Assembly: GCA_017469885.1 (NCBI GenBank)
Contig: JAFUFO010000038.1
Coordinates: 124,001-188,000, forward strand
From: Solobacterium sp.
GTDB taxonomy: Bacteria > Bacillota_I > Bacilli_A > Erysipelotrichales > Erysipelotrichaceae
Reading direction: 5' to 3'
DNA: 64,000 bases
The notes below the pieces were generated by a model. That model was not told where the DNA came from, ran no database searches, and saw nothing but the letters and a program-made list of their open reading frames with translations. Below are positions 3,571 through 14,831 of the stretch, one piece after another. The position numbers and the translations under genes are program-made. Within the stretch, counting starts at the first letter, position 1; each line of letters opens with the position of its first letter.

Positions 3571-3845
3571 AAAACAAAGGCTTTCATCCCTGTACATCTG
3601 TCAGAGACGAAAGCCTGAAATCTTCCGCGGTACCACTCTGCTTGCCGCAAATCTGCGGCCGCTCATCCGGGTCAGTCAACCCGAGGACTCTGATAACGGT
3701 GTCTGCCGTATCCGCTTACTGGGTAATTTCAGCGGATCTGCTGCGGGGTGATCTGCTCAGAATTCCGGAACTGTCTTTCACCAGCCGACAGCTCTCTGGT
3801 CCGGGACCATTCATCGCCACTCCCCGTTGTACGCATTTGGTCACT
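3571..3845 (-). promoter_or_regulatory. T-box leader of ilvA, probable isoleucine specifier
   Basis: On the minus strand the T-box core AGAGTGGTACCGCGG (about 3624-3638) is followed by a terminator hairpin (3578-3616) with a T-rich tail. Stem I features are visible, including AGAGAGCTGTCGGC and GGTGAAAG. In the specifier loop the register ATC-A-CCCCG gives ATC (Ile) at 3750-3752. The leuA leader reads CTC in the same register, which supports the assignment. Uncharged tRNA-Ile should stabilise the antiterminator and turn ilvA-ridA on. Confidence 0.92.
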
Positions 3846-11941: not shown

Positions 11942-12228
11942 AAGCTTCCGTCTCTCAGGAGATGTCCATGAGAGACGGAAGCTGTAAGTTCAGCGTACCG
12001 CGGTACCACTCTCGTTGCCGCAGATCATTGCGACCCCTCAGCCGATCAGCAGATATTCTGCGAATCGTGTCCCTGTTAACGTAGGTCATTCCGGCTCGGC
12101 TTACTGCATTGTTCAGCCTTGCTGCTTGGGGGTGAGTTATTCCGGTCTGCGTCTGCTGTCTTTCACCAGTCGACAGCTCTCTGCCAGCACGCATTGCCGT
12201 ATTTTTCCCCGTCATTGCATTTGCTATT
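11942..12228 (-). promoter_or_regulatory. T-box leader of the leu-ilv operon, leucine specifier
   Basis: Minus strand: stem I with GCAGAGAGCTGTCGACTGG and GGTGAAAG, specifier loop AA-CTC-A-CCCCC (CTC, Leu, at 12134-12136), the core GAGAGTGGTACCGCGG, and a perfect terminator hairpin TTCCGTCTCTCA/TGAGAGACGGAA at 11946-11981 followed by TTTTCG. Low charged tRNA-Leu should switch on leuACDB-ilvBN. Leucine alone appears to gate ilvBN, which also serves valine and isoleucine. Confidence 0.95.
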
Positions 12229-12291: not shown

Positions 12292-12603
12292 TCAATTTTG
12301 TTTCAGTAATGCTGCTTTCACTGTTCCCTTTGGGTCTGTTACCAGCAGACGGACAACCCAGATAACCAGGGCAAGCGCAATCACACTGAGGCCAAGGAAC
12401 GCATCATTTACCATATCTTCAACCGCCGGTGTAAAATATGCAGCTTTGAGTTCCGCATACTCAAAAACCGCATCCACAAGCCACATCAGGGACGCGCCCC
12501 AGAACATGAACATCAGCATTCCCAGCTTCATACTGTCATCTTTTCTGTTGTACCAGATGACGGTTGTAATCACTGCCGCAAATACGGTAAGAAGCAGAGT
12601 CAT
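12292..12603 (-). CDS. Small membrane protein, unknown function
   Basis: 103 residues with about three hydrophobic segments: residues 1-17, about 27-45, and 68-88. No enzyme motif is seen. Its ATG overlaps the stop of the 121-residue gene by one base (TAATG), so the two form a translation-coupled pair and probably work together in the membrane. I do not recognise the family. Confidence 0.75.
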   Translation of the reverse strand: MTLLLTVFAAVITTVIWYNRKDDSMKLGMLMFMFWGASLMWLVDAVFEYAELKAAYFTPAVEDMVNDAFLGLSVIALALVIWVVRLLVTDPKGTVKAALLKQN

Positions 12604-12968
12604 TATTTCGCTTCCGCCTTTTCCGGTGCCCGTTTTACAATCGCATCAGCCGCAAGGCACATGACACCCCAGACAGCGGTGATCAGCACTGCCATTGCCG
12701 TACCGACCGTTGCCATTTCCTGCAGCATCGCCGCCTTGTCTGCCGGATTATACATTGCGGTCAGGAACGGGAACCAGGGAACAACTTCTCCATGCCATAC
12801 ATGTTCAAACATCAGCAGCACAGCGCCGCCGATCAGAAGACCGGAGAGCCATTTCAGCTTGCGGCTCATCGAGATGCCCTGACTTCTGTCAGAAGTGCCT
12901 TTGACAACCGTCTTTTCAATCGCCTTTACGATTACTGCCTCCGCAGCAGGTACTACAAAACATGCCAT
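12603..12968 (-). CDS. Small membrane protein, unknown function
   Basis: 121 residues. An N-terminal helix rich in Ala/Val (VVPAAEAVIVKAIEK), then a basic stretch and two likely membrane segments (about 40-58 and 88-108) with a charged C-terminus. A strong GAGGAGG precedes the ATG. The gene sits behind a leader that is homologous to that of the next upstream gene, an ECF S component. This suggests common regulation and perhaps a linked transport role, but no function is established. Confidence 0.75.
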   Translation of the reverse strand: MACFVVPAAEAVIVKAIEKTVVKGTSDRSQGISMSRKLKWLSGLLIGGAVLLMFEHVWHGEVVPWFPFLTAMYNPADKAAMLQEMATVGTAMAVLITAVWGVMCLAADAIVKRAPEKAEAK

Positions 12969-12983
12969 TTTATTATCCTCCTC

Positions 12984-13050
12984 TAAAAATTAAGAAAGGT
13001 ATGCGCTGACTGCTTCTGCGGTCAATGCATACCTTCTGGCATACGTCACT
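12984..13050 (-). promoter_or_regulatory. Attenuator-like leader, copy A
   Basis: On the minus strand GTATGCCAGAAGGTATGC (13027-13044) can fold as a 7-bp hairpin with an AGAA loop. Its 3' arm is also the 5' arm of a terminator hairpin (AAGGTATGC with GCATACCTT) followed by a T-rich run. The two structures exclude each other, as in riboswitch or antiterminator control. It is closely similar to the leader of the ECF gene at 13695-13772. Ligand unknown. Confidence 0.6.
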
Positions 13051-13125
13051 GAAAAATATTAAAACGTTCTGATTATCACCTGCACGCTTCAGCGTACATC
13101 ATCCGGCTTCCTGCCTGATGAAGTC

Positions 13126-13131
13126 ATTATA
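13126..13131 (-). promoter_or_regulatory. Extended -10 promoter for the small membrane protein pair
   Basis: TGCTATAAT on the minus strand is an extended -10 box. No good -35 is visible. The predicted start near 13119 gives a ~150-nt leader that contains the attenuator-like element. Confidence 0.55.
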
Positions 13132-13156
13132 GCAGAATCCCTGCAGGCAGGTGTGA

Positions 13157-13675
13157 TTATCCTGCCCGTCTGGAAAGCAGGCGTACGATCAGCGGGATCA
13201 GAATCAGCTGTGCGATGATGCCCGGCACCGCATTCACAAATGCGCCGGCGAGGAACATCGGTACGGTAAATCCGGTACCGCGGATTCCGAGCAGAATGAT
13301 TTCTGCAATTCCCCAGACCGCTCGACCTCCCAGCATGCCGGCAATCAGCGAAATCAGCACCGACGCAAATGTCTTCTCCTTGAAGCGTGCATACACAGAC
13401 CCTGTCACAAACCCATAGGTCATCAGTTCAAATGCCATCGCTGTTCCGTTGGGAAACAGTACCGGCATGCCGAACAGAATTCCCCGGAGCAGCGGACAGA
13501 TAAACCCGATCAGTGCCGCATATTGCGGACCGCAGAAAAAGGCGCAGAGAAACACCGGGAAATGCATCGGCAGCAGCATCGCACCGATCTGTGTGATCTG
13601 ACCGGTAATAAACGGCAGTACCTGCCCGATTGCGAGAAACAGCGCCGCCAGGGTCAGTTTTCTGATATTGTTCAT
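13157..13675 (-). CDS. ECF transporter substrate-binding (S) component
   Basis: 172 residues, about six membrane segments, N-terminal KLTLAALFLAIGQVLP typical of S components that dock on the shared EcfA1/A2/T module. The LLPMHFPVFLCAFFCG segment is characteristic of one vitamin-type subgroup of ECF S proteins; the substrate cannot be told from sequence. The ATG at 13675 follows AGGAGG by 9 nt; the longer frame runs into the leader. It has its own promoter and attenuator-like leader. Confidence 0.85.
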   Translation of the reverse strand: MNNIRKLTLAALFLAIGQVLPFITGQITQIGAMLLPMHFPVFLCAFFCGPQYAALIGFICPLLRGILFGMPVLFPNGTAMAFELMTYGFVTGSVYARFKEKTFASVLISLIAGMLGGRAVWGIAEIILLGIRGTGFTVPMFLAGAFVNAVPGIIAQLILIPLIVRLLSRRAG

Positions 13676-13694
13676 ATAAAGCTTCCTCCTAAAA

Positions 13695-13772
13695 CACAAA
13701 AAAGGTATACGAACGCCTTCAGCATTCAACGTATACCTTCTGGTTTACGGTTCTCTGCGGCTTCAGCCGCTG
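13695..13772 (-). promoter_or_regulatory. Attenuator-like leader, copy B
   Basis: After the predicted start near 13772 the RNA has a GCGGCTGAAGCCGC hairpin, then GTAAACCAGAAGGTATAC (13731-13748), which folds with an AGAA loop. This competes with a terminator formed by AAGGTATACG and CGTATACCTT plus six T (13695-13739). The aptamer space before the switch is only ~40 nt. The 3' half aligns with copy A almost base for base, including the ribosome site region. Confidence 0.65.
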
Positions 13773-13777
13773 TTTTT

Positions 13778-13805
13778 ATTGTACGGCATTTCCGTACCGG
13801 TTCAA
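13778..13805 (-). promoter_or_regulatory. Promoter of the ECF S-component gene
   Basis: TTGAAC (13800-13805), a 16-nt spacer and TACAAT (13778-13783) on the minus strand, just before leader copy B. Confidence 0.65.
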
Positions 13806-13871: not shown

Positions 13872-14300
13872 TTACAGCTTATTACCGCCGAACTGTTCCA
13901 GTTTTTTCTTCAGTTCCTCAAGGTCACTCGGATTCAGATCCTTGCCGAACTTTGCGAGGATGCTTTTTACGCCTTCAGCGTCTTTTACCGAGGCCAGTTC
14001 AGCCAGCGCTTCCTTCGGCAGAACCTTTTCGAACGCCAGTCCTCCGCCGATCTTTCCAAGCAGATCATCCGCAAGACCCTTTACGTTCGCTCCGTCGACC
14101 ACTCCTCGCCTCTCAAACATCTTCTTTACCTTTGCCAGCTTTTCTTCATCAAGCCGGATTCCCGCAGTCGCAAGTACATCCGCCAGCTCTTTTTCATTAT
14201 TTGCGAGCGGAAGCTTTTCAGCGAGTTCCTTGGTCAGGCCGTTAACACCGCCGCCTACGGTTTCAAGAAGTTCATCAAGCATAGCCTTTTTGTTTTCCAT
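13872..14300 (-). CDS. Helical protein with two Nif11-like GGG repeats
   Basis: 142 residues, acidic and lysine-rich, almost wholly helical. Two ~55-residue units are visible, each with a GGG turn (ETVGGGVNGL at about 14-23; GKIGGGLAFEK at about 86-96) followed by a helix pair ending LDEEKLAKVKKMF or LNPSDLEELKKKL. The pattern resembles Nif11-type leader domains (helix, small residues, then an acidic EEL motif). No cysteines or core-peptide region, and no modifying enzyme nearby, so a RiPP precursor role is not supported. It has a GGAGG site and its own terminator. Confidence 0.75.
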   Translation of the reverse strand: MENKKAMLDELLETVGGGVNGLTKELAEKLPLANNEKELADVLATAGIRLDEEKLAKVKKMFERRGVVDGANVKGLADDLLGKIGGGLAFEKVLPKEALAELASVKDAEGVKSILAKFGKDLNPSDLEELKKKLEQFGGNKL

Positions 14301-14408: not shown

Positions 14409-14831
14409 TCACTCGTTTCGCAGCAGCTGTGCTAGATGAGAAGCCGCATCACTGATCAGATCACCGGTCGCGATCCCGTCGGTGCCTGCCATATAGTTAC
14501 TGCAGTTGTTGAAGGGAATCAGAATGCGCACCGCATCGGACTGACCGACTGCTTTTGCGATGGCAGGTGTGATTTCTCCCAGCATGGAATCCGCAATGAC
14601 AATTCCGACCGGCCCGATGATATAATCCGCTGTTCGGGCGCAGACGACCACCGCATTTTCGCCGGTCGCTGCCCGATCCGCCCCGGCCTTTAACATCGCA
14701 GCACTGGCGGCGGAATTTGTGCCGACCGCAATCAGTTCGGCATTGATATTCTCCTTGCGCAGGCGGCTGATCAGCTGTTTTCCGAGTCCACCTCCCTGCG
14801 CATCAATAATTACTACACGTTTCTTCTTCAT
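14409..14831 (-). CDS. DUF3842 family protein
   Basis: 140 residues of the DUF3842 family, which has no assigned activity. The N-terminal VVIIDAQGGGLGKQL is a glycine-rich nucleotide-binding-like start of an alpha/beta fold. A further conserved block is IVIADSMLGEITPAIAKAV. It is 6 nt downstream of the PrsW gene and so likely last in that transcript. Confidence 0.85.
   Translation of the reverse strand: MKKKRVVIIDAQGGGLGKQLISRLRKENINAELIAVGTNSAASAAMLKAGADRAATGENAVVVCARTADYIIGPVGIVIADSMLGEITPAIAKAVGQSDAVRILIPFNNCSNYMAGTDGIATGDLISDAASHLAQLLRNE

Follow-up and report, generated by a model that had tools for sequence, protein, structure and literature searches.

In a 64,000-nucleotide stretch of a Solobacterium sp. 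genome (contig JAFUFO010000038.1, positions 124,001 to 188,000; hereafter, the window), two nearby genes are each preceded by a leader resembling a transcription attenuator, which raises the questions of what kind of switch these leaders form, which signal they answer and which pathway they serve. As read from the sequence, both leaders lie on the minus strand, within positions 12984-13772. The genes concerned are as follows.

12603..12968, minus strand: 121-residue membrane protein of an unnamed family ("MACF"), a target of the leader in Erysipelotrichales and Clostridia
12292..12603, minus strand: 103-residue membrane protein, which comes after the MACF gene in other genomes too
13157..13675, minus strand: ECF transporter S component (ECF S; PF12822), start ATG at 13675, the commonest gene behind the leader
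14409..14831, minus strand: DUF3842 protein (PF12953), elsewhere often directly upstream of the leader

The leader of the MACF gene (copy A) and that of the ECF S gene (copy B) contain the following parts, each given with its basis.

13126..13131, minus strand: copy A putative extended -10 element, TGCTATAAT; consensus match only, start near 13119
13100..13120, minus strand: copy A hairpin 1, core GGC-AGGAA-GCC; sequence, loop class as in homologues
13082..13097, minus strand: copy A hairpin 2, GUACGC-UGAA-GCGUGC; script-based hairpin search
13027..13044, minus strand: copy A hairpin 3 (antiterminator), GUAUGCC-AGAA-GGUAUGC; sequence, model score, covariation, folding
12996..13035, minus strand: copy A intrinsic terminator; model score, covariation, folding
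12977..12983, minus strand: copy A Shine-Dalgarno sequence GAGGAGG; sequence
13778..13805, minus strand: copy B putative promoter TTGAAC-16-TACAAT; consensus match only, start near 13771
13757..13770, minus strand: copy B upstream hairpin, GCGGC-UGAA-GCCGC; script-based hairpin search
13731..13748, minus strand: copy B hairpin 3 (antiterminator), GUAAACC-AGAA-GGUAUAC; sequence, model score, covariation, folding
13702..13739, minus strand: copy B intrinsic terminator, U-run at 13698-13703; model score, covariation, folding

The initial annotation described two homologous attenuator leaders with mutually exclusive folds, and both are present as described. A covariance model spanning hairpin 3 and the terminator, with both copies in its training set, gave each copy 50 bits and the remaining matches within the window at most 18 bits, and homologues exist elsewhere. 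In both copies, the 3′ arm of hairpin 3 doubles as the 5′ arm of the terminator; the apex of the copy A terminator additionally carries GC-AGAA-GC. Folding gave -7.6 kcal/mol for hairpin 3 and -23.5 kcal/mol for the terminator of copy A, and -5.7 and -18.4 kcal/mol, respectively, for those of copy B, so that the terminator is favored by 13-16 kcal/mol. The length of about 40 nucleotides that the initial annotation gave for the sensing part of copy B proved right, since the putative promoter places the start at about 13771, at the first hairpin; the sensing part is nevertheless more than hairpin 3, the only array hairpin that this annotation had noted, as extra hairpins with NGAA-type loops lie upstream (two in copy A, one in copy B).

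Loci bearing the same leader were collected from 60 related genomes by protein searches with both downstream genes, and relatives of the ECF S gene were gathered from named genomes. A covariance model of hairpin 3 and the terminator built from 15 sequences (R1) found additional leader copies, and a refined model (R2) was applied to samples drawn from the order, the class and the phylum, and also to the order to which one Clostridia carrier belongs. The covariance search proposed at the outset thus did yield further homologues: leaders occur in many genomes of Erysipelotrichales, spanning two families (the order being assigned via named relatives), in one other Bacilli family (f17, with hairpin-array leaders L170, L173 and L176), and in Clostridia, including Lachnospiraceae, Oscillospiraceae/Ruminococcaceae and a Tissierellia MAG. 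Across the phylum sample, R2 detected no strong new family past those already known, and weak matches were mostly ordinary terminators without array hairpins.

These homologues also bear out the compensating stem changes reported from the two copies, as covariation is seen in both the terminator helix and hairpin 3. Among 30 homologues, two-sided changes affect 12 of the 15 pairs of the terminator helix. The covariation score of the terminator in 30 sequences was 0.424, compared with 0.193 when shuffled and at most 0.124 when slid, in an alignment fitted to the structure, which favors the structure; an alignment of 15 homologues made with MAFFT only gave 0.379 versus 0.192. For hairpin 3, which was not included in the structure of the covariance model, 401 of 462 cells are paired, against a mean of 320 and a maximum of 339 in 1000 shuffles. 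A terminator and an antiterminator that exclude each other and both covary constitute the arrangement of a transcription attenuator.

Comparison of the sequences shows that the defining feature of the element is an array, typically of two to four short hairpins with a near-constant loop. The loop reads C-[A/U]GAA-G or C-ANGAA-G, with C-CGAA-G also seen, and is carried on variable stems with compensating changes. Usually one or two, occasionally three, extra hairpins lie upstream of hairpin 3, the terminator apex often bears another, and the linkers between hairpins are mostly 0-10 nucleotides long but reach 47; some leaders have no or just one canonical hairpin before hairpin 3. Upstream in 30 leaders, 37 C-(A)NGAA-G hairpins with a stem of at least 4 were counted, where dinucleotide shuffles gave 0.44 on average and 4 at most, and none were present in 24 weak matches of the same model. 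A loop-blind tally of every hairpin with at least 5 pairs and a 4-5-nucleotide loop, no loop being preselected, returned C[AGAA]G 32 times, C[AGGAA]G 17 times, C[TGAA]G 15 times and C[ATGAA]G 8 times. NGAA-type hairpins make up 83 of 164 hairpins in the leaders versus 37 of 767 in flanking DNA (half versus 5%). With near-constant loops on differing stems, the loops look recognized and the stems look like scaffolds.

The genes directly downstream of distinct leaders encode ECF S (39), MACF (16), LarC (9), LarE (5) and CbiM/NikM (3) and, more rarely, BtuC-like (2), NikA-like (2), BtuF-like (1) and LarB (1) proteins. LarB, LarC and LarE, the three enzymes that synthesize the nickel-pincer nucleotide (NPN) cofactor, all pass NCBIfam cut-offs (LarB: NF033503, E 1.7e-86; LarE: TIGR00268, E 9e-77 and 6e-72). 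The CbiM, NikA and BtuC/BtuF assignments are family-level, under equivalog cut-offs: Q and O genes come after the CbiM-like ones (CbiM/NikM-Q-O), and for the NikA-like proteins the best named model is an oligopeptide SBP with nikA second, both under cut-off. Relatives of BtuC/BtuF and CbiM can serve B12, iron or cobalt, and the two most frequent targets, ECF S and MACF, are orphan as to substrate. Among 157 distinct model matches, a regulon gene follows 68 of the 72 that have an upstream hairpin versus 10 of the 85 that lack one, a difference whose formal p of 3e-28 is inflated by the relatedness of the genomes, some loci also having been reached through their protein. Of the four exceptions, L242 is in reality an ECF S locus that the classifier overlooked. 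The LarA loci examined carried no such hairpin array. The window's own genome encodes LarC and LarA; its ECF S and MACF genes are the only ones found with a leader, no such leader being found at its larC, and a third match to the model in this genome (C4:76779) is false, being an ordinary terminator without hairpins.

At the sequence level, the association of the leader with lar and nickel genes is therefore established, and LarB/C/E, CbiM/NikM-Q-O, the NikA-like and BtuC/BtuF-like proteins, ECF S and MACF would form one regulon. Because the leader precedes genes for nickel uptake and for nickel-pincer cofactor synthesis, it probably controls this pathway. The regulon points to nickel and NPN instead of the vitamins and ECF substrates that the initial annotation had suggested as ligands, and the gene content suggests that nickel or NPN status is the signal. 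We conclude with considerable confidence that the element is an unnamed cis-regulatory RNA of Firmicutes that controls nickel/NPN genes.

Since the terminator is far stabler than the competing hairpin 3, the default state should be OFF: the RNA alone would fold into the stronger terminator and the gene would be silent. A factor acting in trans, probably a protein that binds RNA, would touch two or more loops at once and keep hairpin 3 closed, allowing RNA polymerase to read through and the gene to be ON. More tentatively, this ON state may prevail when the supply of nickel or NPN is short or the demand for NPN is high. The initial annotation named both a riboswitch and an antiterminator target without choosing between them. 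Conservation restricted to the loops, together with a variable number and spacing of hairpins, suits a compact aptamer less well than the target of a factor that binds the loops, and antitermination through such a factor is the mode of action that we moderately favor. Multiple copies of one loop at free spacing would suit a dimeric or multivalent RNA-binding protein, for which EutV offers a comparison (PMC3369931).

Two larC leaders, L097 and L083, lack a terminator. In the minimum-energy fold of L097, the last hairpin gives up its 5′ arm to pairing with the Shine-Dalgarno region, which implies that the gene would be ON there, too, once the hairpin forms; similar pairing appears possible by eye in L083, which is not taken as evidence because its minimum-energy fold retains the hairpin. 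The termination and Shine-Dalgarno platforms would both indicate that a formed hairpin corresponds to ON.

The alternative that survives best is a riboswitch, in which a ligand (the ECF substrate, Ni2+, or NPN or one of its precursors) binds directly to single hairpins or, as in guanidine-II, to pairs of them and thereby stabilizes hairpin 3; we regard it as unlikely, though well worth weighing. The N7 atoms of G/A-rich loops could ligate Ni2+, and the loops are nearly invariant on free stems, but a loop of 4-5 nucleotides without other conserved joining or junction sequence offers very little for a selective aptamer, and the loops are not self-complementary, unlike those of guanidine-II. The leader is short and both termination-type and Shine-Dalgarno-type platforms occur, in line with a riboswitch, whereas the hairpins differ widely in number and spacing (linkers of 0 to 47 nucleotides). 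The search gave no protein candidate; nevertheless, nickel importers would hardly be expected to be switched ON by Ni2+. That arrays of ~15-nucleotide NGAA-loop hairpins form a new riboswitch class that senses Ni2+ or NPN directly and switches the whole NPN/nickel regulon is, if anything, slightly less likely still.

Antitermination of the ANTAR type (EutV/NasR/AmiR) with altered loops is very improbable. ANTAR targets comprise a pair of short stem-loops, located ahead of a terminator or overlapping it, in which certain loop residues are conserved (PMC3369931), and the leaders resemble them in layout, having an array of at least two small hairpins with conserved loop residues and a variable linker, one hairpin competing with the terminator. 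However, ANTAR hexaloops have A at position 1 and G at position 4, whereas here a C-G pair closes an NGAA or ANGAA loop; moreover, up to four hairpins occur, nickel/NPN genes follow, and many carriers have no ANTAR domain. This domain was matched in just 15 of 60 relatives and in none of six leader carriers of 92-98% completeness (G003, G007, G010, G019, G022 and G030), and the best match in the window's own genome, at 20.8 bits, is under the cut-off; the many carriers without the domain largely refute ANTAR as the trans-factor.

Other candidates for a trans-factor were also considered. DUF3842 is encoded in most leader genomes of the order, often adjoining the leader, but it fails as an obligate factor because G140 (100% complete) carries two leaders and has no DUF3842 match. 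AlphaFold predicts a Rossmann-like fold for it with confidence, and the weak PDB matches of this model (UbiX-like, MgsA) give no clue to RNA binding. The targets of CsrA (GGA loops), HutP, TRAP, PyrR and LicT/SacY were provisionally set aside on loop sequence.

Attenuation dependent on a leader peptide or a tRNA (uORF, T-box) has even less to recommend it. The terminator/antiterminator architecture does adjoin leu genes that carry a T-box, but the genuine T-boxes of the window sit elsewhere than both leaders, Rfam gives no T-box (RF00230) on the leaders, and conservation lies in the hairpin loops, not in codons or a T-box bulge; copy B, which is too short for a T-box and has no ATG between its putative start and the terminator, contradicts this reading. 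Least credible of all is that copies A and B, alike and 0.7 kb apart, are ordinary terminators multiplied by a recent local duplication with no regulatory role; homologues in other genera and in Clostridia, whose stem changes compensate and which precede further genes of a single pathway, refute this reading.

In agreement with the initial failure to assign the leaders to a known class, a scan with Rfam 15 gave no family on the leaders of the window at gathering or permissive thresholds, with sub-threshold matches that looked like chance, and nothing in 20 homologous loci. The guanidine-II (mini-ykkC) riboswitch consists of paired tiny hairpins with conserved tetraloops and is similar in this respect, but its loop is ACGR; the present element has no Rfam match, and its loops lack self-complementarity. 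Nickel-related RNA control is represented by the NiCo (czcD) riboswitch, a four-way junction that switches on efflux genes, whereas the element described here, again without an Rfam match, precedes uptake and cofactor genes. LarR and NikR likewise govern lar or nickel-uptake genes, but as DNA-binding proteins instead of an RNA leader. Text searches of the literature returned no description of the element, and the searched literature contained no RNA-level control of nickel-pincer cofactor synthesis. Term searches within the main texts of motif-discovery papers likewise gave no matching motif, although an earlier unnamed listing may exist. This switch-like leader RNA is apparently undescribed so far. 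It would offer a handle on the timing of NPN cofactor production in gut Firmicutes and would yield testable hypotheses that link DUF3842, the MACF membrane protein and an orphan ECF S component with nickel/NPN metabolism; it would also point either to an antiterminator that binds RNA or to a new riboswitch of very small size.

Several observations concern the surroundings of the leaders. The predicted structure of MACF (pLDDT 74) had no useful match. A 142-residue protein starting MENKKAMLDELLETVGGG, encoded at 13872-14300 of the window (minus strand), resembles a protein of the double-glycine leader-peptide type, and small GG-leader-like genes are also located near the leaders in L105 and L109. 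The usual place of DUF3842 is taken in L111 (9117-9548, minus strand) and L201, upstream of the ECF S gene, by another small protein (MKNQDIIHARELLTEDITCVVCKGEDVL...), which we take to be DUF1893-like from its appearance, and in L113 and L117 by proteins that are presumably DUF362-like. In L052, L054, L164 and L168, the DUF3842 coding sequence contains one array hairpin at its 3′ end, where coding and RNA signal overlap. Finally, one T-box leader of the window (3600-3840, minus strand) exceeds the Rfam gathering score, and another, upstream of leuA (11968-12224, minus strand), reaches 88.5 bits against a gathering score of 93 and is therefore overlooked by a standard scan.
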